A stretch of DNA of 64,000 nucleotides. Origin: Pirellulimonas nuda (GTDB lineage: Bacteria; Planctomycetota; Planctomycetia; Pirellulales; Lacipirellulaceae). Below the pieces are notes generated by a model. It did no database searches. It saw nothing but the letters and a program-made list of their open reading frames with translations, and was not told the origin of the DNA. The stretch covers positions 5,306,905 to 5,370,904 of the forward strand of contig NZ_CP036291.1 in assembly GCF_007750855.1 (NCBI RefSeq). The letters are read 5' to 3'. Below, piece after piece: positions 17,541-48,188 of the stretch (positions within the stretch are counted from its first letter, which is position 1; the number at the start of each line of letters is the position of its first letter). A program made the position numbers and the translations under genes.

Positions 17541-18794
17541 GGCGATTGCGCCAAGCTAGGCAATATGCGACCCTCTAGGCAAGCCGGCGTTTGGAATGGC
17601 AGCAGGTGTTGCCTGGCGGCCGGCGGGACCTGGAGGGATGGGCATGGGCGCCAAGGCGAGCGTGCGGATTGCGGAGCATTTCGAGGGCCTCACCGACCCG
17701 CGTCGGCGTGAGGTGACCTACCCGCTGGTGAACATCGTGGCGATGGCGTTGTGCGCGGTGCTGAGCGGGGCGGACGACTTCGTGGCGATCGCCGACTGGT
17801 CGCGGGAGAAGAAGGATTGGCTGGCGAGATTCTTGGACATGAGCAGTGGGGTCCCCTCGCACGACCGCTTCAACGCGGTCTTCGCGGCGATCAAGCCGGC
17901 GGAGTTCGAGAAGTGCCTGCTGAGCTTCATCACGGCGTTGCACGAGGTGACCGAAGGGCAGGTGATCGCGATCGACGGCAAGACCTTACGGAGGAGCTTC
18001 GACGCGGCGAGCAGCAAGGCGCCGATCCACATGGTCAGCGCGTGGGCGTCGGCCAATCACATCGCGCTGGGGCAGGTGGTCACCGACGCGAAGAGCAACG
18101 AGATCACGGCCATTCCCAAGCTGCTGGATATCCTAGAAATCCAGGGGTGTTTGGTGACGATCGATGCGATGGGCTGCCAGCGGGAGATCGCCGAGCAGAT
18201 CGTCGTGGGAGGGGGGGACTACGTGCTGGCGGTCAAGGGGAACCAGCCCAAGCTGCACACAGCGATCAAGGGCTTCTTCGCCGCCCACCTCGAAGACGAT
18301 TGCAGCGGCATCGATTGCCGCCGCTCCGAGTCGCACGAGAAGGGGCACGGCCGGCAGGACGATCGCTACTACTACTTAGCGAAGCTTCCGGACGGGTTCG
18401 ACGAGGGGAGCAAGTGGCGCGGGCTCAAGGCGATCGGCCTGGCGTGCCGCATCACGACCCACGCCGACGGAACGCAGACGCACGACACCCGCTACTACAT
18501 CGCCAGCCGCTACCTCAGCGGCCAAAAGTTCGCCGACGCGGTCCGTGGCCACTGGGCGATCGAGAACGCGTTGCACTGGCAACTAGACGTCACCTTCGGC
18601 GAAGACCAATGCCGCATCCGCAAAGGCCACGCCGACGCCAACTTCAGCCTGCTGCGCAGGACAGCGCTGAGCCTGCTCAAGAACAACACCTCACGCAAGC
18701 TGGGCGTCAAGAACAAACGCCTCGCGGCCGCATGGAGCGACCAGTATCGGCTGGAAGTCCTGTGCGGGAGGTGAGTTATGGTGCGATCGCCCTG
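17538..18794 (+). mobile_element. ISAs1-family insertion sequence
   Basis: About 1257 bp. Candidate terminal inverted repeats are 17538-17552 (CACGGCGATTGCGCC) and 18780-18794 (GGTGCGATCGCCCTG, whose complement is CAGGGCGATCGCACC), matching at 12 of 15 positions. Flanking bases do not form a direct repeat. On the right it abuts a 5'-truncated IS66 gene, and on the left it touches the sulfatase start, which fits a deletion or rearrangement after insertion. Family assignment rests on the transposase; the exact ends are inferred. Confidence 0.65.
17644..18774 (+). CDS. ISAs1-family transposase
   Basis: A 376-residue DDE transposase that looks intact. Family blocks: HFEGLTDPRRREVTYPLVNI at the N-terminus, IAIDGKTLRRSFD (first catalytic Asp), LVTIDAMGCQREIAEQIV (second Asp), DYVLAVKGNQPKL, and HWAIENALHWQLDVTFGED with the catalytic Glu. 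The start ATG 17644 is preferred because GGAGGG lies six bases upstream; ATG 17638 and ATG 17596 are in the same frame. No internal stop or shift is seen, so the element could still be active. Confidence 0.9.
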   Translation: MGAKASVRIAEHFEGLTDPRRREVTYPLVNIVAMALCAVLSGADDFVAIADWSREKKDWLARFLDMSSGVPSHDRFNAVFAAIKPAEFEKCLLSFITALHEVTEGQVIAIDGKTLRRSFDAASSKAPIHMVSAWASANHIALGQVVTDAKSNEITAIPKLLDILEIQGCLVTIDAMGCQREIAEQIVVGGGDYVLAVKGNQPKLHTAIKGFFAAHLEDDCSGIDCRRSESHEKGHGRQDDRYYYLAKLPDGFDEGSKWRGLKAIGLACRITTHADGTQTHDTRYYIASRYLSGQKFADAVRGHWAIENALHWQLDVTFGEDQCRIRKGHADANFSLLRRTALSLLKNNTSRKLGVKNKRLAAAWSDQYRLEVLCGR

Positions 18795-19414
18795 GCGACT
18801 ACTCGGGGATCATCCTGAACTGCGATCGGGCCAAGATGTACCTCGACGGCAAGCGGCTGCAGTGGTGCTGGGCCCACCTGAAACGCGACATCCAGAATCT
18901 GATCGATTCGCCCAACGGCCAAGTCAAACATCTGGGACGCGACCTGATGCGAGAGCACGTCCGGCTGTTCAAGCTCTGGAACCGTTACAAAGCCGGCAAG
19001 ATCAAGTGGCGCGCCTTTCAGGCCGACGCAGCGCCGATCCGCGACAGCGTGAACGGACTCGTGCTGCGCGGCAGCTACAGCGGCAACAAGCAGCTCGTCG
19101 GCTTCTGCGACGGGCTGCTGCCCCGCAAAGAGCACTTGTGGACGTTCCTGGAGGTGGAAGGGGTCGAGCCGACCAATAATACGGCCGAGCGTGCGCTCCG
19201 CCCGGCCGTGATCTACCGCAAGCTCAGCTTCGGCACGCAGAGCGCCTCGGGAAGCCGCTACCTAGAGCGGATGCTGAGCGTCTCGGAAACCTGCCGACTC
19301 CAGAACCGCAGCGCCTACGAGTACCTCGTTGAAGCGATGCAGGCTCACTTCGCAAGAAGGACCGCACCCTCACTGCTGACAGCAAAGAGCGCCAATGCAT
19401 ACGCCGCGGCGTGA
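18795..19414 (+). pseudogene. IS66-family transposase, C-terminal fragment
   Basis: An open frame encoding the C-terminal part of an IS66 (TnpC-type) transposase. Visible are YSGIILNCDRAKMY, the conserved CWAHLKRDIQNLID, VEPTNNTAERALRPAVIYRK with the catalytic Glu, and SFGTQSASGSRYLERMLS. The N-terminal half, including the leucine-zipper and zinc-finger regions and the first catalytic Asp, is absent because the sequence is cut by the ISAs1 copy. It is therefore not functional, although the remaining frame is undamaged, which suggests recent loss. Confidence 0.85.
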
Positions 19415-19442
19415 ATCAATTCACCAGGTCGTGAACGGTTAC
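18795..19442 (+). mobile_element. Right-end fragment of an IS66-family element
   Basis: The 3' part of an IS66 element. Its outer end reads GTGAACGGTTAC (19431-19442); the reverse complement starts GTAA, as is typical of IS66 terminal repeats. The left part of the element is missing where ISAs1 begins. The right end lies inside the 3' part of a sulfatase gene, whose codons are interrupted exactly at 19443. Confidence 0.75.
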
Positions 19443-20829
19443 AATCCCCAGCCCGAATGACCGACTGAGGCGCCTGATCCCTGCCGCTTTCGGTCAGGTA
19501 GCCGGGGAAGTGCCAGAACAGCGAGTCGCGTTCCACCGTTGCTTCGACATCCGCAAAGAGCGGCGAGATGTCCACCCCGTCGACCGTGGTTCCTTGGGGC
19601 ACAGCGCCCCCGGCTAGAGCCGCGAAGCTCCGATAGAAATCGACGCCGATGACCGGCGTGTGATTGACAGAGCCTCCATCCACTAGGTCAGGATTGCCGC
19701 TCCACGCGATCAGGGGCACACGGATGCCCCCTTCGTCATACTGGCCCTTCTCGCCTTTCAACGGGCCATTGTTCGATTGGCTTTGCTTGCCGCCGTTATC
19801 CGAGTAGAACAGCAGCAGCGTGTTCTCGGCGAGGGTATGGCCTGCATTGGAAGGGTCGGGCGTGGTTTCCAGGTAGTTGACGAGACGTCCGACGCTTTGG
19901 TCGAGACCTTCGATCAGCGCCCCGAATGAGGCGTTGCTGTCTTCTACGCCGGGCGCCTTGTTCTGGTACTTCGCCAGCAGGTCGCTTCGAGCATGGACAT
20001 TACCGATAGGCCCGTGCACCGCGAACGTGTTGAACTGCACGAGGAAGGGCCCCGACTTCTCCTGCTCCATGAAGTCGATCGCGGCGTCGGCCAGGGCGTC
20101 GGACACGTGCTTGTCGGTTCCCACCAGAGCATCCATGGCGGCATCGCTCACGCCGGAGGCGTACGGCTTGAGGTTGGCGTTCACGTACTGTTGCGTGTAG
20201 GGCGCCGCGTAGGGGTCGAGGCCCGGGCCGATGCTGCTTCCGAAGGTCCCGCCGCTTGCGTGATAGGCGCCGGGGCCGCCGGAGGCCTGTCCCCCGAAGT
20301 TTTCATGGAAGCCGTGATCCGAGACGATGAGGTTCGCCCCGTCTGTGCCGCTCTCGGTCACATGGAACTTTCCGAAATGGCTGGTCCGATAGCACGCGGC
20401 TTGCAGCATTTCCGCATACGTGAAACTCGAAGTCGGAATGGCCACTTCGCCATCCGCGAGACCCTGCTCCGGGCCGACGAGCATCGTGTTGTTGCCGGCT
20501 CGGTTCAGGCTGCCGACGTTAAAGACGTAGTTCGACGGCCGCGAGGCGTACACGCCGGTCAGCAGGGCGGCGCGGGTGGGCGCGCAGTTGGCCCCATTGG
20601 TGTAAGCGTTGGTAAACGCCATGCCTTCGCTAGCAATCCGCTCCAGGACGGGCGTTTCGTAGAAGTCGCTTGGATGGCCGAGATTGGTGATCGCGTTGCT
20701 CGTGTCCGACCAACCTAGATCGTCCGCCATGATGAAAACGATGTTCGGCTTGCCCTGCGCCAATGGGCAAACGTCGCTCAGGACGAGCGATGCGACGATG
20801 AGGGCCAGGGGTGTTCGTAGTTTTGACAT
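19345..20829 (-). pseudogene. Sulfatase truncated at its 3' end by IS66
   Basis: Genuine sulfatase sequence runs from 20829 to 19443 (462 codons). It has a signal peptide (LALIVASLVLSDVCPLAQG), metal motif VFIMADDLGWSD, formylglycine site C82 in C-A-P-T-R and FYSDNGGKQS. In intact relatives the motif VIRAGD is followed by W-K-L and a terminal ~60-residue domain; here AGD is followed by 32 codons read backwards from the IS66 end, stopping at 19345. The active site survives but the C-terminal substrate-contacting part is lost. It was probably the last gene of the operon starting at 25607. Whether the chimeric protein folds is unknown. Confidence 0.85.
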
Positions 20830-20972: not shown

Positions 20973-21413
20973 CTACTCCTGCAACTCAAACGTGTGTTCG
21001 TTGTCCTCCCCCTCCTTAATGTCGATCGCTAATTCCGTCCTTGAATTGTATCGTTTGGGCAAGTATTGCTCGACTTCTGCCTCCGTTACTCCGCTCTCCG
21101 GATCGGTGAAAGTCTGAGCTGTATCCCGCATCGCCTTGATCTCCACGCGGTACTCGCCCGGCGCCAGGCCCGGAACCCGTCCGATGCTAAACCGCCCATC
21201 GACGATATCGGCGCCGGCTGTTTGGCCGTCGCCGAGGGGGCGTAGGACGATGGCGCCACTGGGCAACGGATCGCCATTAAAGGTGACCTCGCCGCGCAGG
21301 GACGCCCGTCCGCTCTCGCCGCAACGTACGCACGCCCAGAGCGCGAGAATGACGATCGATAGCCGCGCGGTCGCCTGTTTCCAATCAGAAAGATGCGTCA
21401 ACCACTTCTCCAC
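20973..21413 (-). CDS. Lipoprotein with carboxypeptidase-regulatory-like domain
   Basis: A 146-residue exported protein with a hydrophobic leader and lipobox-like L-W-A-C ([18 protein letters not shown]), followed by one beta-sandwich domain: [23 protein letters not shown]... [20 protein letters not shown]... [12 protein letters not shown]. This form is very common next to DUF1559 genes in planctomycetes. The GTG start at 21413 overlaps the end of the DUF1559 gene by 29 bp, which points to coupled translation. The function is unknown; a surface-anchored partner of the DUF1559 pseudopilin is inference. A paralogue with the same neighbour is at 43684-44154. Confidence 0.78.
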
Positions 21414-22449
21414 GATTCATGGTGCTCAGCGCTTGCCAGACGGGTAGGTCGATATCGTCAGCCACAAACTGTACCGAGGCGTCGCACAGCAAGGCCATCA
21501 CACCGCCGGGATGTCTGCTACGACTGCTGGTGTACGACTGCGTGTTGCTCGCTTGATTGTTCGCGCCTAGACGGTTGCAGGGCGCGTGTTCGTACTCTCG
21601 ACAGTTCCCTTCGTCTGGCGCGCTGCTGTTGGGGGACAGGAAGGTGGTTATGTTGCCGCAGCCCCCCTTCTCGCACCAGATACGGGCGCGTCGGTCACAC
21701 TCCGTGTCGCCCGGGGGCTGATTCATCTCCATCATGGCGAGCGTCTTCGAGGTTCCGTCAGTAACCTGAGCGAGCCGCGCCCCGAAGCTTAGGTGGAACG
21801 GCGCGACGCGCAGCGTTGCGGAAGCCAATGGGTTGGGCGGCCCGACGTTGCAGTCGGGGTGCGGCGCATCGGTGCTCGGCGCCTGCGGGATCTGGCAGAT
21901 CTGCCGCCATGCTCCCCAGTTGATGCCGTAATTGCCCTTCCAATCGATTCCGGCGCCGGCAACACACGCCGAAGCGTTCTGCGACTCGTCGCTCGGGCAC
22001 TGAAACGCGGCGAGCTTCTGCCCGACGGGGCTGTTCGCAACCGCGTATTGATCTTGCGTGCTTTGCTTGAAGTCGTACTGAGCGAACAGCGCCGACTCCT
22101 CCAGGTAAGGCAGGATGAAAGGCACGAACGCCGTCGCCACCTCGGTCGGGTGGTCGACCAAGCGCGTGAGCGTTGTCGCTTTCGCGTCGTAACCAAGGTT
22201 GCCCGGGGGGAGCCGCTTGTTTGACGACTCGTAGTTGTGAAGTGCGATCCCAAGCTGCTTGAGGTTATTCGTGCACTGAGATCGCCGCGCCGCTTCACGG
22301 GCTGCCTGCACGGCCGGCAGCAGGAGCGCGACCAGGATGCCGATGATGGCGATAACCACCAGCAGTTCTACTAAGGTGAAGCCCGCTTGATGAATATCTG
22401 CTTTACTGACGCGCGTCTGGCTCAAGCGTTTCGGATCGTGATCCATCAT
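21385..22449 (-). CDS. DUF1559 protein with prepilin-type leader
   Basis: A 354-residue pseudopilin-like protein. After a 23-residue charged leader comes the type IV prepilin motif G/FTLVE and a long hydrophobic helix ([18 protein letters not shown]), then the DUF1559 signature [20 protein letters not shown]. The C-terminal half has the family's [21 protein letters not shown] and [19 protein letters not shown] blocks. The start ATG 22449 (or the next codon, 22446) is chosen because upstream codons lack family similarity. It sits 43 bp after the tandem PEP-CTERM gene and overlaps the lipoprotein gene, so it is in the middle of a minus-strand operon. The function of DUF1559 is unknown. Confidence 0.9.
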
Positions 22450-22492
22450 TTTCTCGGTGATTGCCTGCTTGTGGTCATGAATACGACGGCGA

Positions 22493-24832
22493 TTAAAACC
22501 CGCAGGTACGGCGGCCCAGTAGACCCCCAAGGACCACGAACAGAGACACCGCGGCGGCGGGCTCCGGCACGGCGCTGCCCGGGCTGGCGCCGCCGACGGC
22601 TGGGTTGCCGAAGCCGTTCTTCCACGTGGTGTAGTCTCCCGGATCGACCGTGCCGCTGCCGTCGCCGTTGCCGTTCAGCACCGCCTCGTTGCCGCCCAGG
22701 TTGTCGCGCCACACGGTGTAGTCCGCCGCATCCACGACGCCGTCGTCGTTGAAATCGCCGCTGAGGCCTTCCGACGCTAGGTACCGCACGATGCCGGTCT
22801 GGATCTCGGTTTGACCTACCTGCCGGTAGAGGAACGTGAGGTCCTGCTCGCCACCCGGAACGAAGCCGGAACCCAACGAGATTTCGGCTCCATCGAGGAC
22901 GACGGAGCTTCCGAGCAGAAACGATTCCGCGATGAAGGTAGCCGAGTTCGCCAAGCCCGGCTCCCAGCCGTTGCCCGACCCGTTGCCGCCCGGGAAGCCG
23001 GGGTCGCCCGCCAGGCCCGTGAACCCGGCGGGGTTCAGCGAGCCGCCATCGGCACCCGCGTCCGCGCTGACAATCTGAATGGCGTCGATCTCGATGCCGG
23101 GCGGAGGGGTCGCCCCGCCGATGGTGCCCCCCACCAGCCTTAGTTCTCCATTGCTAAACACTTGCAGGGTCAGCGGTCTAGGCCGGGCGCCGATGAAGAC
23201 CCGCAGGTCGTTCCACAGCAGCCCGCCATTGTCGTTCACCACGTTCTCTAGCGAACTAAACTCGAGCACCGTACCCGCGGCGACCGCGATGTCTCCCAGG
23301 GGGATGTCGTCTTCGGGGCCTTCGGAGGCGCCCATGTCGGAGGTGATGTAGGTGAAATTGCCGCCGCCGAATGGATCGACGCCGCCGGAGACGTACGACA
23401 GCCGGAAACCTTCATTTTCCGACTGCAGGGACCCCACGCGGAGCGACGACAGGTTGATGTCGGTATCGAAGCTAAACCGGAAGGTTTCCCCGTCCACTGC
23501 CGTGTCCATGCGACGCATCGTGTTGGTGTTGCCGGCGTCGTTAGCAGAGAAAATCCCGATGCCTGTCGCGTTCGATCCGTACGAGCCGGGCGCGTTTGTA
23601 GTAAATCCCTGGAGCGTCATGGTGACGCCCCCTTGGGTGTTCATTAGGGGATCAAGCGGCGATTGATCGGCGATCGGGAAATTGCTGGTGGCCCCGAAGT
23701 CGAAGACGATCACTTGTGCGCTGGCGGGAGCGCCCGAAAGGACGCACGCCGCTAGTGCGACGACGCATCCAGCAACAAGGACGACGCGTGGCGTCCAGGA
23801 CCGAACGCGTCCGGCCGCTCGCACCGCGGCCATCAGAACAAACCCGCAGCAGGCCAAGAGCCCGGCGGATGGCTCGGGGACGGCGCCGAAGGTTGGCAAC
23901 GCCGCGAATGCCGCGGCGCCGTTCGCGTCGATGTAGAGGCTCTTAAAATCGACGAAGTCGTTGATGTCTGTCACGCCGTCGAAGTTCACATCGCCCATTT
24001 GGTAGGCGGCGGTCGTTGTCAACATGCTCAAATCAGCTCCTTGCCCGGAACGGAAGAGTTGCCAGTCGGCCGGATCAATGTCTCCGTCGAAATCTAGATC
24101 ACCAAGAGCCCTCTCCATGCCGTTTCCGTCGAGGATGAACGACGTGTCGGACACCACCAGATCGTCCATCAGCCCGCTGTACACGCGCACCAGATTGCGA
24201 TTGGCGCCGACGATGAAGGACTCCATCGACACAGGGAAGCCGCCAACGCCCGTAAGCTGCCCATCGACGTAGGCGAGCACGGTTTGAGGAACCGCGTGGT
24301 AGGAGAGGATGATTTCTTGCCAGGTATCGGCCGCCAGATCCCCCCCGTCTACCAGGTCGAACGAGCCGAACGCCGTTACACTCGCGACCGTGGAGCCGTT
24401 TTCAATCTGCCAATCGGAGTTCGCAAAGGCGCCCTCGGAAACCCCGGACACGATGCCCCTAGAGCCCATCGGGTCGTCGATGAAGGCTTGATTGGGATTG
24501 ACCCAAAGCCGGACGGTGAAGTTGTCGCTCGGAGTAAAGTTGGGAAACGCTGCCGTTGGGAACTGGATGAACTTCCCGTTCTCGAAGTCGATCGGCTCGA
24601 ACAACGCCGAGGAAGCGCCCGCGGAGCCGGGCCGTACATTCGCGGAAGAAGCGAGAACCCCGAAGAACCCGGCGTCCGCGATGGCGCCGGTCCGGTTGTT
24701 GCCACTCGTGTCTTGTGCGAGGTTTCCGGCGTTCTCGAAACTCAGCCTGAGCACTTCTGCGGCATGGACGCCGCTGTACGCGCTGAGTAGCAGTGCAGCC
24801 GATGCCACGGCCCGAAGCTTCCAGTTACGCAT
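22493..24832 (-). CDS. Tandem PEP-CTERM protein: two exosortase cargos in one frame
   Basis: 779 residues in one uninterrupted frame, start ATG 24832 with signal peptide [17 protein letters not shown]. Module 1: a LamG/concanavalin-like domain (about 25-235), two dockerin-type repeats ([28 protein letters not shown]), then a full PEP-CTERM tail, VPEP at 318-321, a hydrophobic span and Arg residues at 338-349. Directly after comes a second hydrophobic stretch ending A-P-A-S-A (residues 350-372), like a signal peptide. Module 2: a beta-rich domain, two more dockerin-type repeats (about 691-742) and a final VPEP at 755-758. Module 2 is a paralogue of the stand-alone protein at 24906-25607. An internal ATG (23833, residue 334) could start module 2 alone, but no ribosome-binding site precedes it. 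Role unknown; surface display likely. Confidence 0.85.
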
Positions 24833-24905: not shown

Positions 24906-25607
24906 CTACCGATTCTGGCTCTGGTGCGCAGCTCTCCTGGCCGGGAAGCACGCTCCGATGGCGGCAAGCAGGAGAAGCGACGCAGTGGCCGGCTCCGGCA
25001 CCGGCTCCGTACTCACGACAAGGTCGTTCCACAACACACCGCCTGAGGCGTCATTCAATGAGCGAAACTCCAGCAGCGTGCCCGCGGTCACGAAAATGCT
25101 GCCTAAGGGGATGTCGTAGGTTGGTCCCTCGGTGGCTCCAGAGTCGGCAGTCGTGTAAGTGAAGCTGCCACCCGCGAATGGGTCATCGCCCGACAGGAAG
25201 GCCAGCGCAACACCTTCGTCGGCGCCGTTCACATTCCCAAGCCTCAGCGAGATGAGGAACACGTCTGTGTCGAAACTGAAGTGAACCGTCTCTCCATCTT
25301 CCGTGGCGCCGATTCGGCTCCGCTGCCCGCCATTGCCGGATTCCCCGCTGGTTTCGATACCAAAGCCCTGAGAGTTGGGGGTGTAGACTCCGCCTGGAGG
25401 GGTGGTCGTCATGCCCTCTAGAGTGAGGGTGACGCCATCGACGGCGTTCGATTGGGGTGACAACGAGACAGCGGGCACGACGAAATTGGCCGCCACGCCA
25501 GTGTTGACATCTACGCTTCCATCGCCGAAATCGAAGCGAATGGGCGCCGCCGTAGCGAAGCCACCAGCCACCAGAGACAAGCCGACGAGAATCAACTTCA
25601 GCCACAT
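24906..25607 (-). CDS. PEP-CTERM protein, stand-alone paralogue of the neighbour's second module
   Basis: A 233-residue exported protein: signal peptide KLILVGLSLVAGGFATAA, a beta-sandwich domain, and a C-terminal exosortase signal (VPEP, hydrophobic span, PARR). It shares many blocks with the second half of the tandem protein at 22493-24832, such as DGET-(V/F)-x-FSFDTD, FTY-(T/I)-T-(A/S)-D and LLWNDL. ATG 25607 is preferred; ATG 25619 is four codons upstream, but its first base falls in the IS701 target duplication. The IS701 copy begins at 25623, so the native promoter has been pushed about 1.55 kb away. It is the first gene of a probable five-gene operon. Confidence 0.82.
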   Translation of the reverse strand: MWLKLILVGLSLVAGGFATAAPIRFDFGDGSVDVNTGVAANFVVPAVSLSPQSNAVDGVTLTLEGMTTTPPGGVYTPNSQGFGIETSGESGNGGQRSRIGATEDGETVHFSFDTDVFLISLRLGNVNGADEGVALAFLSGDDPFAGGSFTYTTADSGATEGPTYDIPLGSIFVTAGTLLEFRSLNDASGGVLWNDLVVSTEPVPEPATASLLLLAAIGACFPARRAAHQSQNR

Positions 25608-25622
25608 TCGAGAGCACATTAG

Positions 25623-27169
25623 TACTACAGCGCTACGTTGATCTTGTTTGCGTTTGGGCGATCGGCCATGTTGTTGGTGTCGCAGGGGGGCGACCTGGCG
25701 CAGGGCCGCTAGCATGGACGCCGATGAGATCCGCCGTTTGAAGCCGGAATTGACGAGTTACTTGCACGAATTCGACGCCTGTTTCTCGCGTCGAGATACT
25801 CGTGCGCACTTGCCAACCTACGTCGAAGGCCAACTCTCCGAACTGCCCGCGAAGAGTTGCGAGCCGATGGCGCTGGCCGCCGGAGTGGCGCCGCGGACGC
25901 TGCAAGAGTTCCTGGCCCAGCACCGCTGGGACGAAGACGCCGTGCGCCGGCGACTCCAAGAGATCGTCCTCCGAGATCATGCGGGGCCGCACTCGATCGG
26001 CCTGATCGACGAAACGAGCGACGTCAAGAAGGGGGACAAGACGCCCGGCGTGCAGCGGCAGTACTGCGGCTGCGTCGGCAAGCAGGAGAACGGCATCGTC
26101 ACGGTCCACTTGGGCTACGCGACCGGCGACTTCCACGCGCTGGTCGACGGCGAGCTGTTCTTGCCGGAGAGTTGGTCGGAGGACCGCCAGCGGTGTCGGG
26201 CCGCCGGCATTCCCGAGGACATGGTCTACCGCTCCAAGTGGAAGATCGCCCTGGAGCTTTGCGATCGGGCCGCGGCCCACGGCGTGATGTTCGACTGGCT
26301 GACGTTCGACGAAGGCTACGGCGGAAAGCCGCTGTTTTTGCAGGGCTTGGACGGTCGAAAGCAACGCTTCGTCGCCGAGGTCCCGACGACGTTCTCGTGT
26401 TGGACCGACCGGCCGCGCGTGACGGAGCGACCCTTTCGCCGCGGCGGTCGCGGCCGGCCCCGCAAGGTCCCGCGGTTGGTCGCCGCAGCGAGCGCCCCGC
26501 AGAGCGTGCAAGACCTCGCCGAGAACTGGCCCGAGCTGCGCGATCAAGCGTGGACCCGGTACTACGTGAAGGACGGCGAGAAGGGGCCGCTCGTGTGGGA
26601 GGCGAAGCACGCCCGCATCGTCATGAAGAACGACGACGGGTTGCCGGGGATCGAACTCCACCTGCTCGTCGCCCGCAACGCATTGAACCACGATGAGGTG
26701 AAGTATTTCATCAGCAACGCCCCGTCCGACACGACCATCGAGACGTTGTTGCTGGTTGCGTTCTCGCGGTGGCGCGTCGAACGGTGCTTCCGCGACCAGA
26801 AGCAGGAGATCGGACTCGATCAGTGGGAGGGCCGCTGTTACCTCGGTCTCAAACGCCACTTGATCCTGTCGTGCGTCAGCTACTTGTTCCTGGCCCGCTG
26901 TCGTGAACGGCTGCGGGGGAAAAAATCCGGAGGTCACGGTCTGCCAAGTCCACGCCGCCGTCGGCGCGCTGCTGCCGAGTTGGCAGCGTAACGGCCGGGC
27001 CTCGCCGACGCTCATCGAGCACACCGCCAACGTCATCCAGCACTGGCAACAACGCAACGCCGCCGCGCGGGCCTCCCACCGGAAGCGAAACCTGAAAAAA
27101 CTGCGGAGAAACGGCATCATTCTCAAAGGCCTGATACGATGCAGATGGACGTGACCTAGCGCTGTAGTG
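25623..27169 (+). mobile_element. IS701-family insertion sequence with TTAG target duplication
   Basis: 1547 bp. The left end reads TACTACAGCGCTACG; the complement of the right end reads CACTACAGCGCTAGG, giving a perfect inner match ACTACAGCGCTA. Both sides carry TTAG (25619-25622 and 27170-27173), matching the YTAR-type 4-bp duplication known for IS701. The ends are therefore exact and the insertion seems recent, although the transposase frame is shifted. It lies directly upstream of the PEP-CTERM gene starting at 25607. Confidence 0.88.
25714..27154 (+). pseudogene. IS701-family transposase with a single frame shift
   Basis: From ATG 25714 the frame encodes an IS701 transposase with all three catalytic blocks: SIGLIDETSDVKKG (Asp), DWLTFDEGYGG (Asp) and RWRVERCFRDQKQEIGLDQ (Glu). 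At about 26920-26930, in GGGGGAAAAAAT, the frame shifts. Frame 1 ends at 26991 in a basic, meaningless tail, while the true C-terminus (KNPEVTVCQVHAAVGALLPS to the stop at 27154) continues in the +1 frame. Loss of one A from the six-A run would restore a full-length protein of about 480 residues. It is either a recent mutation, an assembly error or a slippage site. Confidence 0.82.
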
Positions 27170-40478: not shown

Positions 40479-42380
40479 ATGATTGAACTAAGACGCTTGC
40501 TAGTTCCGGGAGTTTTCTTCGGCATATTAGCCATCTCCAGCGTCGACGCCTCGACCACGACGCTCGACGGCAGCCCGACGCTGTTCGAAGTCATCAACAT
40601 TGGTGATTTCAACGACGGGACCGCGCAAGGGTGGACCATCAATCCGTTGGGGGGAGGGGTATTCCTGCCCGGCACGGAGCTGCAGAACAACGACCCTGTC
40701 AGCGGAGGCGATCCCACGGTCTCGCTCAACCTGAATAACTCGACCCTCCCGGGCGTCCCTTCTACGGTGACCCTCGGAAGCCTCCCGGGACAGTACGACA
40801 TCGTGCAGTTTCGCCTACGCTTCGACACGTTGCCCGCCGCTGCCATCGCGAACACTGCCGTTGCTGGCGACCAGTTCTTTCTCACCGGAGGGCCGAACGC
40901 ACGAGAACCGTTCTATGTCAACAACGGGACCGGGATACAGGGCGTCGATACGGTCCCAGAGCTCCAGACGGACGGCGCCTACCACACCTACACCATCCAG
41001 CGCGCCCCCACCGACGCCGGCTGGGGCAGCAGCTACAGCGTGGTGCGCATCGACCCGATCAACACGTCCGACGCGGTCGGCACGCTGTTCTCCATCGACG
41101 ACGTCAAGCTGGCCCGCTCCAACGACGTGCAGGCCTTCCCCGCGTTCGTCGAACCCGTGCCGCCCAACTTGATCGCCAACGGCGGCTTCGACGCCCTCAC
41201 CGATCCCACGCCTCCAACCGCTACTGGAGCTTGGAATATCAACGGCTCCAACGGCAACTTCACTTTGTTCCAGGGGCAAACGGTCACGGTAGACAACTGG
41301 GGTGTTCACTTCGACGACCCAAATAACCTAGTCCCCGCGGTCAACGGCGGAGAGCTGAACGGATCTTTCTACCTCGACACGCACCGCCGTGTCGCCGGCG
41401 GCGATGTCACGTTGAATTCTGCGATGGGCTACCTCAACGGTCTCGTCCAGGAAAACATCCTCAGCGGGGTGACGATCGACCCTGCCGCGACCTATGAATT
41501 CTCGTTTGATCTGGGGCAGAACGCGGGCACCAACCAGAGCCAGGCCTCCTTTCAGATCGGGCTGACCGTTGGGACCGGCGCGGACGCCACGAACCCGGCC
41601 AACGCGATTGCGGGCTCGTTGCTCGACGTCACGGACTTTTCAACAGTGCCCAATGCCAAGACCACGAACACCCTCATGGTCAGCGGCGCCGATCTGCTCG
41701 CCGCCCAAAGCAGCGGGCAGGTCAACGTCTTCTTCCAGACGCGCAATCTGGCGGCGATCCCCGGCTTTCCGGGGAGTGTCGCCAGCGGCGACGTTTCGAG
41801 TACCGCCATCGTGTCGCAGGTGATGATCGATAACCTCTCCCTCATCTCCCCAAACGTCTTTCCGGCGGGTGACGTGAACAAGGACGGCGTGGTCGACCAA
41901 GCCGACGTCGATGTCGCCCAGCTCTACCTCGACGGCGACGGCGGCGCCACCGCCGCGGTCCGCCAGAACACGCTGACCGCGGCTGGGAACGCGGCGGCGG
42001 CAGTGCTGGCGGGGCTGAACCTCACAGACTTCGACCTGACCGGCAATGACTTCTTCGACGCCGCCGACGTCGCGGCGATCGCCGCGCTGGCCAACGGCGC
42101 CGGCCTGCCCGGCGACTTCAATAGCGACGGCTTCGTAAATGCCGCTGACTACACCGTCTGGCGCGACAATCTCAATGCACCCGAGTCCGTGCTGCCGCCC
42201 GGCACCGGCGACAACTCCGGATCGGTAGACCCCGGCGACTACACGATTTGGAAGAACAACTTCGGCTCGCCCGCGGTGTCGGGCCTGAGCGCCTCGACTG
42301 CCGCCGTGCCGGAACCGGCTACCGTCGGCATGTTGCTCCTGGCGTGTGCTGCGGCGGCAGTAGCGCGCCGCGTGCGTTGA
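40479..42380 (+). CDS. Secreted dockerin-repeat PEP-CTERM protein
   Basis: 633 residues. Signal peptide [18 protein letters not shown]; then a beta domain beginning [13 protein letters not shown], a second domain from LIANGGFD (carbohydrate-binding-like), a dockerin-type block ([20 protein letters not shown]), two more at the end ([35 protein letters not shown]), and a canonical tail: [19 protein letters not shown]. It is a full-length paralogue of the second half of the protein at 44412-48188. The TAAGGAA site sits before ATG 40479. It is the first gene of a plus-strand operon with DUF1559, lipoprotein and tandem PEP-CTERM genes. Role unknown; surface-exposed polysaccharide binding is inference. 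Confidence 0.85.
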
Positions 42381-42550
42381 CGCGTCACGACGCGGCCCCG
42401 GGCCGTGTGACGCGAGCGGAGCGGCGGGGCAGCGCCGCTCCGCTCTGCTCACCGTTGTCGGCGTCAAAGCCCCCTCGGGAAGGACGGGGCCTGCCGCCTA
42501 AACCCAAGCCGGCCGCGGGCGCAAGTCGCCCTAACCTAGAAGGAGGTAGC

Positions 42551-43684
42551 ATGCATACCACGGGTCGGGTGCGAGTCGATCCGCTGCATTGGGCTCGGAC
42601 CGACCGATCGCGGCGGCCTCGGGCAGCGGCCGCTCGCGGCTTTACGCTCGTCGAGCTGCTTGTTGTGATCGCTATCATCGGCATCCTGGTGGCGCTGCTG
42701 CTGCCGGCGGTGCAAGCGGCGCGCGAAGCGGCGCGGCGGTCGCAGTGCATGAACAACCTCAAGCAGTGTGGGCTGGCCGCACTCAACTACGAGAGCTCGC
42801 GCAAGGCGTATCCGTCCGGGGTCGAGGTCTGGCCCGACGACACGGGCGAGCTCATCCCGGAGGTGGGGTGGACCGCAGCGGGGGCAGCCGCCCGTTCGAA
42901 GGGGAACTGGGCCATCCTAACGCTCCCTTACATGGAGCTGCAGGCGCTCTACGACCAGTACGACTTTTCCAACGGGAACGGCGCCGCGAGCACGACGTCG
43001 GTGGTCCGCGGGGGCTCGTCCAATCACAAGAACTCGTTCACCGTCGTCGAAGCCTATCGCTGCCCCTCGGACACAGGGTCCGCCGACTACACGGGCCAAG
43101 AGGCGGTGGGCTCGTATCGGGGGGTTAGCGGGAGGAAGGAGTGGAACGCGGCCCACTACTGGGGGTACCCCTGGTCCTTGAGAAAAGGAGGCTACCTCAA
43201 TGGGTCGGGGCTGAATCTGGTGACCGATGAGTTCGGGGACAACGCCCAATCCAACGTTAGCCGTAAGAACACACGAGGCATCTACTCGGTGTCGGGGATC
43301 CAAGGGGTCAAGCCCGTCCAGATGAGGCAGGTCACCGACGGCACAAGCAAGACGCTGCTTATCAGCGAGTACCACACGATCAGTGGAACTCTGCCCACCA
43401 GGTGGGGGCTGCCGTTTACGAACGCGACGCTTAGCGAAGTGCAGCACCATTTCGTCACCCGGGGTTTGGCCGACTACAACAAGTGCGTCGAGATGCACCC
43501 CGGCTCGGGCAACGAGGTCGGGGGGGACTGCCGGCGCTCGTTCGCCAGCCTCCACGCGGCGGGCGTGCTGGTGTCGACATTCGCCGATGGGCACGTGGCC
43601 ATCGTGCAGCCCGAGATCGATCCGATCGTCTGGAAGGCGCTCGCGACTTTCGGGGGAGAAGAGATTGTGGAGGCCAACCTATAA
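42551..43684 (+). CDS. DUF1559 protein with prepilin-type leader
   Basis: 377 residues with an excellent ribosome-binding site (AGAAGGAGGT just before ATG 42551). A 30-residue basic leader ends in G/FTLVE, then the hydrophobic pseudopilin helix and [19 protein letters not shown]. Later blocks include [50 protein letters not shown] and [20 protein letters not shown], all typical of DUF1559. Its stop overlaps the next start (TAATG), so it is translationally coupled to the lipoprotein. The same gene pair is present at 20973-22449. Confidence 0.92.
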
Positions 43685-44411: not shown

Positions 44412-47400
44412 ATGCACCACCTTCGATCGTTGGCGGCAGCCCTGCTTTTACTGACAACGCTGGGGGCATTCGCCAGAAACCCAAATGTCGTGGACCTAGG
44501 GCCGGTGGCCCCCGGCGATAGCTCGCTAGCGGTGCGGGCCGTTCCGTGGGGGAGCGTTCCCGGCGACGTCCAGCAGATGGCCTACCAAGGGTCGGACCTC
44601 TACTTCGCCACGCGCGAGGGGCAGGTCTGGCGGTACGACCAGCAGGGCAACCGAGAGGCGACGGCGTTCCTGGACCTCAGCGCCGCGCTGGCCACGCGAT
44701 TCAAGGCGGTCAACAACCCGCTCTCCGTCAGTGCCGGGCTGCGGGGGATCGCCTTCCACCCCGACTTCGCCGAGCCGGGGGCCGCGGGCTTTGGGAAACT
44801 CTTTACCGCACACGCAGAGAATTTTGGCTCCGCGACTCCGGACCACGCGCTCAATCCTGACTGGGACACCGACGGCACAAAGATCGACAGCGCCCTGGTG
44901 GAATGGTCCGTGGACCCACAAACGGGTCGGGTCAATCCGGATTCCGGCCGCGACGTGTACCGTGTGCAGTTCCCGTTCGGCCGTCACCCGGTCCAGCAAA
45001 TTGCCTTCAATCCGGCCGCCAGGCCGGGAGACGCAGACTACGGCAACCTGTACCTCACCTACGGCGACGCCGGCTCCGCCAACAGCGACAACGTCGTAAA
45101 CTTCAACCGTGTCCAGGGCACGGACACCCCCCTGGGGTCCATCGTCAGAATCAACCCGCTGCAGAGCGACGGCGAGCAATTCACCATCCCGTCGGACAAC
45201 CCATTCGTGGGTTCCGGCGATGGCGCGTTGGACGAGATCTACGCTTACGGCTTCCGCCACCCGCAAACGCTCGGCTTCGACCCCCGCGACGGACGGCTGT
45301 TCGCGGCGGACATGGGCCAGAGCAACGTCGAGGAGGTCAACCTGATCGAGCCCGGCGCCAATTACGGCTACGGCACACGTGAAGGGGTCTACGTGTTCAC
45401 CGACCAGGTCAAGGGGAGTACTGCCGTCGACGACAGCCTGCGGGAGGTCCTTCTGGATTCGTCCCAGACGCTCTTCGTCCAGACCGACGCCGACCCCACC
45501 GGCTCGAACCAAACGGTGCTGTCGCGTGTTGCGGACGGGTTCACCTACCCCGTCGCGCAGTTCGACCACAAGAACGGGGGCTCTGGGAATAATAAGATTG
45601 CAGCAGTTGTGGGGGGCTCGGTCTACCGCGGGACATTGGCGGAAGAGCTCTCCGGTCTGTACCTGTTCGGCGACATGGCGAGCGACGCGATCTACTACTC
45701 AGACGCAAGCACATTGACCAACGACCAAGACCCGGCCGCCGTATTCCGGCTGCCGCTTGAGAACGCCGCGGGGCAACCGAGGACGCTGGGCCAGATCGTG
45801 GGCGTGGGCGCCGGGGGGAGGGCAAATTTCCGCTTCGGTCAGGACGCCCACGGCGACGTCTTCGTAATCAGCAAGGCGAATGACACGATCTACCGCCTGG
45901 AAGGAACCCCAAGGCGGCCGGGTGACTACAACGGCGACGGCGCCGTCGATGCTGCCGACTACACCGTGTGGCGCGACGCGTCCGGCTCGCAGCGCGATCT
46001 CTGGGCCGATGGCAACCGCGACTTTGTGGTCGATGGTCTCGACTACCACGTCTGGAGGCAGAACTTCGGCGTCGGGCCCGCGGCGCACGGCGCCGCCGTG
46101 CCCGAGCCCGCGGCGGGCGTTCTGCTTGCGTGGGTCGCCATCGCTGCGGCTGTGTGGCGGCGCCGCGACTGCCTCCGATGGCGCCCGGCTTCCGCAGCGG
46201 CGCTTGGCTGTCTGTCGATGGCGCTGGGGAGCGCCGCCGCACACGGGGCAACGACGACCCTAGATGGCGGTCCGACCCTCTTCGACACGATTGTCATCGG
46301 GGACTTCGACGACGCAACGCGTCAGGGCTGGACCGAGGCCGCAAACGGGCACGCGGGTGGACTTAGTTCGGATGGTGTGCAGCTACGGAACAATGGCCCC
46401 ACCAGCGGCGGCGACGCGCAGGTCTACCTCGACTTGGGCTTGTCAACGCTCCCCGGAGTTCCCACCCAGTTAACGGTCGGCAACCTTCCCGGCCAGTTCG
46501 ACATCGTGCGGTTCGACCTGCGTTTCGACGCGCTTCCAGCGACGCTCGGCACGACCCACCGTGGTGACCAATTCTTGCTCGATGGGGGCCCTAACGCGCG
46601 TGCTGCGTTCTTCGTGAACGATGGCGCCGGAACGCAAGGCGGCCACTTGGCGCCCGAGCTCCCGACGGACGGCCTGTACCATACCTACACGATTCAACGC
46701 GTGCCGACCGATGTGGGTTGGGGAGAGACCTACGGCCGCGTTCGTATCGACCCCATCAACGATTCCAGCTCCAACGGCACGCGGTTCTCCCTAGACAATG
46801 TCAGGCTGGGCCGAAGCAACGCGGTTCAGCCCTTCCCAGAAATACCCCGGCCCGAGTTGATCAAGAACGGGGATTTCAACAGCGTTAGCAACTACGCGAC
46901 CAACACCGTTGGTCACCAGACCAAGGACGTCCGGGTGGGTGGATCGTTCAACGACTTCGCTCCGTTTACCGGCAGCAATGCAGACATCGACCACTGGACC
47001 CACTTCTCGCGGAATGCCGAAGCGCTGGAAGCCGCGGTAGGGAATGTCGGCGTCGTGGACGGCGTCGGTGAACTTGACGGCACCTACTACCTCGACGCGG
47101 TGTGGCTGGTTGGGCCGGGAGATTACCTTTCGGATTCCGGCGGCGGCTACGACCATGGCCTCGTGCAGGAGATCCGTCTCGAATCCGGTTCGATTACCCC
47201 GAGGACAAACTACACCCTCACGGTAGACTTCACCGTGAAGCAGAACACGGGCCAGGGGCCCGGCGGTGGTCACGAGAACGCCGTCGTAGAGATAGGCCTG
47301 ACCGACGGCGGCGGCGCCGCCGCCACGGACCGGGCCAGCGCCTTCGCGTGGGCCTCTTCACCAACGCTCGACAACAACCCCTCTCAGGTGACCTTGCAGG

Positions 47401-48188
47401 TGTCCGGAGCAGACCTGCTGGCCGCATCAGAGTTGAACGTACTCTTCTCGCACGTGAACACGACCCCGATCCCTGGTTTCCCTGGCAGCGTTGACCCGGC
47501 GGATGTTCGCCCCACGCCCCCCAACCTGGTCTCCTCCGTCGTTTTCAACAACGTGTCGCTGCGGCCAAATTCGATGACCGGCGACGTCAACCTAGACGGT
47601 CTGGTGAACCAGGCTGACCTCGACTTGGCTCAGTTGTATTTCGATGGCGATGGAGGCGAGCCGGCGATCGAACGGCAGAACACGCTCTTCAGCGCCGGCA
47701 ACGGGGCCGCGGACGTGCTGGCGTCGCTCAACCTCACCCGTTTCGATTTGTCCGGCGACGACTTTTTCGACGCAGACGACCTCGCGATGCTCAGCAGCCT
47801 GGTGGTTCCTCTACCTGGCGATCTGAATGGCGACGGCGCCGTAGACGCGGCCGACTACACGGTGTGGCGCGACGCGTTTGGCGACGCGGGGGTCGGCTTG
47901 GCCGCGGATGCAAGCGGCAACGGCCTGGTAGACGCGGCCGACTACCAGATCTGGAACGACACCTTTGGCCAGACGCTAGCCGCGGTTGGGCAAACGCCAG
48001 ACGGCACAGCCGTGCCAGAGCCCACCGCCGCGTGCGTGGTCGTGCTCGCGGGCTTGGCGGGCGGCGTCTGCACGCGATGGGTTCGCCGGTTGAACTCTCG
48101 CGTCAATGGAACTTGTGAATGCAACGTGCGCATGGGCGCACGCTTTACTATGGAAAGCACGCTGCAAGATGAGCGTCTGTTGGTGTAG
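44412..48188 (+). CDS. Tandem PEP-CTERM protein: sugar-dehydrogenase-like module plus second cargo
   Basis: 1258 residues in one frame. Signal peptide LAAALLLLTTLGAFA. Module 1 (about 40-500) is a PQQ-dependent glucose/sorbosone dehydrogenase-like beta-propeller (LRGIAFHPDFA, GNLYLTYGDAGSA, DEIYAYGFRHPQTLGFDP, AADMGQSNVEEVNLIEPGAN), then two dockerin-type repeats and a PEP-CTERM tail with VPEP at 563-566 and RRRDCLRWR at 583-591. A second hydrophobic leader (593-610) ending S-A-A-A follows at once. Module 2 is a paralogue of the protein at 40479-42380, with dockerin-type repeats and VPEP at 1201-1204. The final tail is unusually long (about 30 residues after WVRR). An internal GTG (46152) could start module 2 alone; no clear ribosome-binding site precedes it. 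Confidence 0.85.
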   Translation: MHHLRSLAAALLLLTTLGAFARNPNVVDLGPVAPGDSSLAVRAVPWGSVPGDVQQMAYQGSDLYFATREGQVWRYDQQGNREATAFLDLSAALATRFKAVNNPLSVSAGLRGIAFHPDFAEPGAAGFGKLFTAHAENFGSATPDHALNPDWDTDGTKIDSALVEWSVDPQTGRVNPDSGRDVYRVQFPFGRHPVQQIAFNPAARPGDADYGNLYLTYGDAGSANSDNVVNFNRVQGTDTPLGSIVRINPLQSDGEQFTIPSDNPFVGSGDGALDEIYAYGFRHPQTLGFDPRDGRLFAADMGQSNVEEVNLIEPGANYGYGTREGVYVFTDQVKGSTAVDDSLREVLLDSSQTLFVQTDADPTGSNQTVLSRVADGFTYPVAQFDHKNGGSGNNKIAAVVGGSVYRGTLAEELSGLYLFGDMASDAIYYSDASTLTNDQDPAAVFRLPLENAAGQPRTLGQIVGVGAGGRANFRFGQDAHGDVFVISKANDTIYRLEGTPRRPGDYNGDGAVDAADYTVWRDASGSQRDLWADGNRDFVVDGLDYHVWRQNFGVGPAAHGAAVPEPAAGVLLAWVAIAAAVWRRRDCLRWRPASAAALGCLSMALGSAAAHGATTTLDGGPTLFDTIVIGDFDDATRQGWTEAANGHAGGLSSDGVQLRNNGPTSGGDAQVYLDLGLSTLPGVPTQLTVGNLPGQFDIVRFDLRFDALPATLGTTHRGDQFLLDGGPNARAAFFVNDGAGTQGGHLAPELPTDGLYHTYTIQRVPTDVGWGETYGRVRIDPINDSSSNGTRFSLDNVRLGRSNAVQPFPEIPRPELIKNGDFNSVSNYATNTVGHQTKDVRVGGSFNDFAPFTGSNADIDHWTHFSRNAEALEAAVGNVGVVDGVGELDGTYYLDAVWLVGPGDYLSDSGGGYDHGLVQEIRLESGSITPRTNYTLTVDFTVKQNTGQGPGGGHENAVVEIGLTDGGGAAATDRASAFAWASSPTLDNNPSQVTLQVSGADLLAASELNVLFSHVNTTPIPGFPGSVDPADVRPTPPNLVSSVVFNNVSLRPNSMTGDVNLDGLVNQADLDLAQLYFDGDGGEPAIERQNTLFSAGNGAADVLASLNLTRFDLSGDDFFDADDLAMLSSLVVPLPGDLNGDGAVDAADYTVWRDAFGDAGVGLAADASGNGLVDAADYQIWNDTFGQTLAAVGQTPDGTAVPEPTAACVVVLAGLAGGVCTRWVRRLNSRVNGTCECNVRMGARFTMESTLQDERLLV

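Follow-up and report, generated by a model that had tools for sequence, protein, structure and literature searches.

PEP-CTERM sorting signals lie "virtually without exception" near the C-terminus of the proteins that carry them, and long-tailed examples may be non-functional (Haft 2006, PMC1569441). In Haloferax volcanii, the archaeosortase ArtA, an exosortase-like enzyme, cuts HVO_0405 at a central tripartite signal in vivo (PMC7157517, PMC9263693), and the HVO_0405 gene is a fusion of two (PMC7157517). In Myxococcus xanthus, the internal MYXO-CTERM tag of MXAN_5598 has likewise been ascribed to a two-gene fusion (PMC11980579). The NCBIfam model NF033207, "midcut-by-XrtH protein", denotes by its name a mid-chain exosortase cut; a search of the open literature on midcut/XrtH found no report. 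Two further chains, the Bradyrhizobium FbcH cytochrome b/c1 precursor and the flavivirus polyproteins, carry a hydrophobic stop-transfer span and, after it, an internal signal peptide whose cutting by signal peptidase sets free the next protein.

The Pirellulimonas nuda frame described here, P0001, contains the features of an ordinary PEP-CTERM substrate (PF07589, TIGR02595) twice, in that each unit has both the usual tripartite tail and its signal peptide. Compared through its name and score, NF033207 (cut-off 45 bits) gives no match to P0001, to a second frame of the same region, P0002, or to a triple-unit frame, P0003, and reaches 20 bits on a seven-unit frame, L200.

Two complete units in one open frame

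The window analysed is a stretch of 64,000 nucleotides, C1:5306905-5370904 of a one-contig, 6.62-Mb genome. P0001 is a 779-aa open frame on its minus strand (24832-22493) that holds two complete units with no stop between them, each consisting of a signal peptide, cargo, dockerin, VPEP and hydrophobic span. Here and in all other frames, simple rules of hydropathy served to identify signal peptides and spans. The features are as follows.

22493..24832, minus: P0001, double-unit frame (unit A, joint, unit B), with a full-length ortholog, L251
24761..24832, minus: first signal peptide, residues 1-24, with GGAAG upstream of the ATG
24143..24568, minus: unit A cargo, Laminin_G_3, residues 89-230 (Pfam PF13385, E 7.1e-9)
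23921..24103, minus: unit A dockerin-like repeats, residues 244-304 (alignment, and searches using that alignment)
23717..23881, minus: joint, from VPEP (318-321) to APASA (372), comprising span 1, a basic loop and span 2
22766..23716, minus: unit B cargo, residues 373-689
22598..22765, minus: unit B dockerin repeats, residues 690-745 (Pfam PF00404)
22496..22570, minus: terminal PEP-CTERM, with VPEP (755-758), hydrophobic span and Arg-Arg (TIGR02595)
24906..25715, minus: single-unit PEP-CTERM gene related to unit B; P0001 follows it after 73 bp

The internal VPEP occupies 23881-23870 and the terminal one 22570-22559; span 2 of the joint is the second signal peptide and ends with APASA at 23717. 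The terminal tail passes TIGR02595 (18.3 bits, cut-off 16). Residues 365-558 of P0001 share 49% identity with the adjoining single-unit gene. An AlphaFold model of P0001 built from three sequences is uninformative, with a mean pLDDT of 33.

The first-pass annotation had described this region as one frame with two tandem exosortase substrates, leaving the strand unstated. The open frame is borne out, on the minus strand, and the residue numbers given for both VPEP motifs and for APASA are all correct. The LamG-like domain that it placed in unit A corresponds to Laminin_G_3 (E 7e-9), and both of its dockerin regions were recovered, the first by alignment and the second as a PF00404 match (residues 692-713) of 22.5 bits, just below the cut-off of 22.9.

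A second case lies in the same window.

44412..48188, plus: P0002, double-unit frame of 1258 aa, two units with a joint
46098..46250, plus: P0002 joint, VPEPAAGVLLAWVAIAAAVWRRRDCLRWRPASAAALGCLSMALGSAAAHGA, where no ATG lies between the hydrophobic spans
48012..48188, plus: terminal VPEP of P0002 and an unusually long C-terminal tail
40479..42380, plus: single-unit PEP-CTERM gene, by eye like the second unit of P0002, TTLDGGPTLFDTIVIGDFDDATRQGWT

The first unit of P0002 is glucose/sorbosone dehydrogenase-like (Pfam, E 3e-24) and continues into dockerin repeats. At the joint, VPEP at residue 563 is followed by a span, RRRDCLRWR and a second leader ending in SAAAHGA; the PF07589 score here is weak (16.9 against a cut-off of 20.7). 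The second unit consists of cargo, dockerin repeats and VPEP at 1201.

In both P0001 and P0002, each unit possesses the PEP motif, hydrophobic span and basic cluster of a PEP-CTERM substrate, and unit B opens with a hydrophobic core and A-x-A as expected of a signal peptide under the hydropathy rules. Across the chains, internal copies are followed by ~440-1010 residues and are therefore far from the extreme C-terminus, so that only the last unit, and not the whole chain, is an ordinary PEP-CTERM protein. The chain has the form of a secretory polyprotein, in which at least two complete products are encoded by a single frame without interruption.

Several other features of the window were noted. 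Each double-unit gene has two neighbours of the same kinds, one gene whose N-terminus is pilin-like and one small gene that is lipoprotein-like (21385-22530, minus; 42248-43684, plus), and this neighbourhood is thus present twice in the window. By eye, transposase-like genes at 17596-18774 (plus) and 25648-26991 (plus) flank the PEP-CTERM cluster on both sides, with several sulfatase genes around them. A piece resembling the end of an IS66-type transposase (18836-19414, plus) abuts the sulfatase gene at 19345-20829 (minus), whose last residues look foreign by eye and which was probably truncated by the insertion.

Distribution and conservation of the joints

The first-pass annotation had held that its reading would be refuted if internal joints were absent from all other genomes. 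The search came out in its favour: 116 joints were found in 75 frames from seven families of the order Pirellulales, in a sample chosen by search whose frequencies are not a census. One joint, and hence two units, is present in 41 frames, and two joints with three units in 31; the remaining multi-unit frames have four, five and seven units. Four scanner matches were removed by hand (the second frames of L033 and L166, the plus-strand match of L034, and L113).

The P. nuda genome contains at least 13 multi-unit frames, triples included, among ~150 PEP-CTERM sites; the count is a lower bound, drawn from searches and from stretches around PEP-CTERM sites. L031, L032 and L033 are clean triples, and L110 is a triple with VPEH at its first joint. 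A further triple-unit frame of this genome, L036 (G000:C1:2330000-2340000, minus strand), has VPEG at its second joint; its third unit is without dockerin and PEP-CTERM, apparently through a frameshift, and L036 appears to be a decaying copy.

A profile of the unit A dockerin and joint matches 44 of 44 genomes of Lacipirellulaceae, and many of the matches are full-length and lie in frames of ~1000 or ~1400 aa. A joint-only profile applied to 198 genomes of the order, combined with reading of the loci, identified frames in families f2, f4, f13, f14, f17 and f18. L200 (G085:C14:26500-38000, minus strand) carries seven PEP-CTERM units in a single 2427-aa frame; the units are ~330 aa long, each has a signal peptide, and most are close copies of each other. 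In the four-unit frame L201, the units resemble formylglycine-generating-enzyme domains by eye. Of the matches listed from 392 genomes across the phylum, one full-length joint (L374, in G278) falls outside the order. Outside the phylum, the matches listed for 33 genomes (Verrucomicrobiota and one Armatimonadota) include no long open frame with a full-length joint; the Lacipirellula positive control was recovered in this search, and PEP-CTERM is common in these 33 genomes. In G054, from another family of the order, PEP-CTERM matches at C11:57161-57259 and C11:84595-84684 fall within frames that are open for 12,608 and 8,905 aa and possibly encode giant surface proteins.

Comparisons between species provide evidence that the joints are maintained. 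First, the P0001 ortholog in Aeoliella straminimaris (G006), L251, is a full-length, fused frame of 831 aa in which all features are kept, at 43% identity overall and 31% at the joint, VPEPASLVTLSMAVVAALLVVGRRRLHPLYLRCGVLVLTTLATATWSSMASA; a second relative, L375, is present in G005. Second, the triple P0003 (L033:2487-6875) is fused in nine species of seven genera, counting P. nuda itself, with orthologs in G006, G010, G027, G035, G036, G041, G042 and G043 and frames of 1422-1570 aa. In the nine-sequence alignment, the flanking spans diverge while PEP is invariant at each internal joint as well as at the C-terminal one of the three sites. Third, the joints of ortholog pairs differ at 469, 358 and 708 first, second and third codon positions, respectively, the third being the most variable, with pN 0.36 and pS 0.66; the joints evolve under coding-type selection. 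By every sequence test applied, the joint looks functional.

P0003 and its orthologs also show a weak Lamin Tail Domain-like match ahead of the unit A dockerin (residues ~276-299; five of nine sequences, best E 0.009), a recurring module of units A and B that has no confident family.

The same modules also occur apart. In G003 (L372), relatives of P0003 units A and C are encoded apart, the genes being tens of bases from one another; G009 (L371) has a separate unit A beside a fusion of B and C; and in G007 (L168), only a stop codon and 54 bases part two units that are in the same frame. Thus, one set of exosortase substrates would exist either as an operon or as a fused frame, and loss of one stop codon could connect the two states.

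Proposed processing of the chain

We consider it probable that these frames encode secretory polyproteins of tandem, complete exosortase substrates, for which the topology, both cuts and the equal product ratio are predicted. A single ribosome would translate the chain from end to end. Export would begin at the first signal peptide and cargo A would cross the membrane, until the first PEP-CTERM span halted transfer with its Arg cluster left in the cytoplasm. The next span would then act as an internal signal peptide and restart export, using the same Arg cluster as its n-region; cargo B would cross, and the cycle would repeat for any later units. Each PEP would be cut by exosortase, and signal peptidase I would act behind each A-x-A. 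The units would thereby be freed as individual surface proteins, in equal copy number, and the remaining membrane hairpin of ~45 residues would be degraded. The first-pass annotation had proposed that exosortase and signal peptidase release two proteins from one chain with a shared Arg cluster, which fits all of the evidence with cutting as the predicted step. The genome encodes two exosortases (PF09721, E 2e-58 and 3e-47), and mid-chain cutting by an enzyme of this type has a precedent in the action of ArtA on HVO_0405 (PMC7157517). One exosortase domain (G000:C1:3441252-3442016, 254 positions) lies within a 1769-aa open frame, much longer than an exosortase requires, which is possibly a fusion or just a long open frame.

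The chief alternative is that the chain remains uncut, and that the joint is a transmembrane hairpin tethering two or three extracellular domains. Such a hairpin needs just two hydrophobic spans and a short basic loop, and these are present: the loop between the spans has a median of ~10 residues and a net charge of at least +2 across the 116 joints, the charge being partly built in by a scanner that required two Arg/Lys. Fusion of domains in an uncut protein would also account for conservation of the single frame. However, PEP and A-x-A are both dispensable for a hairpin. PEP is nevertheless invariant at the two internal joints in all nine P0003 orthologs, and A-x-A follows span 2 at 75% of joints, compared with 12% of random cargo windows and 45% of same-letter shuffles. 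That the modules also exist as individual genes, each encoding its own signal peptide, likewise argues against a permanently joined protein. The invariance of PEP disfavours the uncut hairpin, which we consider unlikely, and the strongest clue to cutting is that PEP is kept internally where an uncut hairpin would need none. From the conserved PEP and the enriched A-x-A, we infer that the products of the polyprotein are parted by proteolysis.

Slightly less likely again is partial processing, in which one site is used; for example, PEP may be cut and the second signal peptide kept as an N-terminal anchor, or the reverse. The quarter of joints that lack a strict A-x-A would suit this reading, as would the degenerate VPEP of two joints, VPEH in L110 and VPEG in L036, which indicates that at least some joints tolerate loss of the exact motif. 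In HVO_0405, moreover, the cut documented in the available text of PMC7157517 is at the sorting signal only. Against partial processing, the looser motif [AVSTI]-x-A stands at the right distance at 93% of joints, a frequency that is 81% after shuffling.

A nested start, in which the first gene has no stop and the second unit begins at an internal ATG, was raised as an alternative by the first-pass annotation, at 23833 in P0001. An ATG does lie between the spans at 27 of the 116 joints, P0001 included. The codon at 23833 (residue 334) is inside span 1, however, and the letters that precede it (...GGGTTTGTTCTG) contain no Shine-Dalgarno motif; P0002 has no ATG between its spans at all. An ATG precedes the hydrophobic core in 52 of 57 first units as against those 27 joints, and an ATG with a core Shine-Dalgarno is found at 38 of 53 first-unit starts but at 6 of 116 joints. 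Because start signals are rare at joints, the nested start is rejected as a general account and is very improbable. An ATG is commoner where the spacer exceeds 14 residues (10 of 23 joints) than in short spacers (17 of 93), as would be expected if the longer spacers were younger fusions, and its retention in some of them makes separate initiation possible in a minority of joints.

Finally, an artefact is a negligible prospect and was rejected, whether a stop codon missed through faulty sequencing or assembly or a pseudogene in decay, as suggested for L036 by its truncated, apparently frameshifted third unit. The joints are conserved across genera, remain free of stops in orthologs at 24-65% identity and recur in numerous independent genomes, of which several, like that of P0001, consist of a single contig.

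For Pirellulales as a whole, we lean, with less assurance than for the polyprotein reading of the individual frames, towards a general polyprotein route. Operons of exosortase substrates would have repeatedly become frames of 2-7 units, made in a fixed ratio and cut by exosortase and signal peptidase, with a ~45-residue cassette (VPEP, span, Arg loop, span, A-x-A) standing where a stop codon, a ribosome site and a start codon would otherwise lie.

Comparison with described sorting systems

If the joints are cut, exosortases would routinely act mid-chain, and bacteria would possess a secretory polyprotein strategy that is systematic. Many units would escape models of sorting signals built around a C-terminal tail, and fused and separate relatives would constitute a natural series from operon to single gene. 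Exosortase action would be easily assayed, with an uncut product doubled or tripled in size; the same property made HVO_0405 a useful archaeosortase reporter. One gene probably yields several surface proteins in many aquatic planctomycetes, a rare bacterial counterpart of viral polyproteins.

No report of tandem or polyprotein exosortase substrates, or of conserved chains of them, was found in the open-access literature. HVO_0405 and ArtA are compared here by arrangement and not by homology, and no membership is claimed. HVO_0405 is alike in having a mid-chain motif, hydrophobic span and basic stretch in a fused gene, with PEP here in place of PGF. HVO_0405 is described as one strain-specific fusion, whereas 2-7 complete substrates are joined here in many genes per genome, conserved across genera, and every joint, unlike that of HVO_0405, combines a PEP-CTERM with a further signal peptide. 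MXAN_5598 shares a C-terminal-type sorting tag in an internal position; it differs in being a rare single case that involves a myxosortase, in having an outer-membrane barrel as its second part, and in that its processing is only proposed (PMC11980579). In contrast to the near-terminal placement of PEP-CTERM reported by Haft 2006 (PMC1569441), internal copies are common and conserved here. The joints of Pirellulales differ in another respect from FbcH and the flavivirus polyproteins, which have no exosortase or sorting signal and form no repeated surface-protein system. Mid-chain sorting signals are known singly, and what appears to be new is a family-wide, conserved polyprotein of two to seven exosortase substrates.
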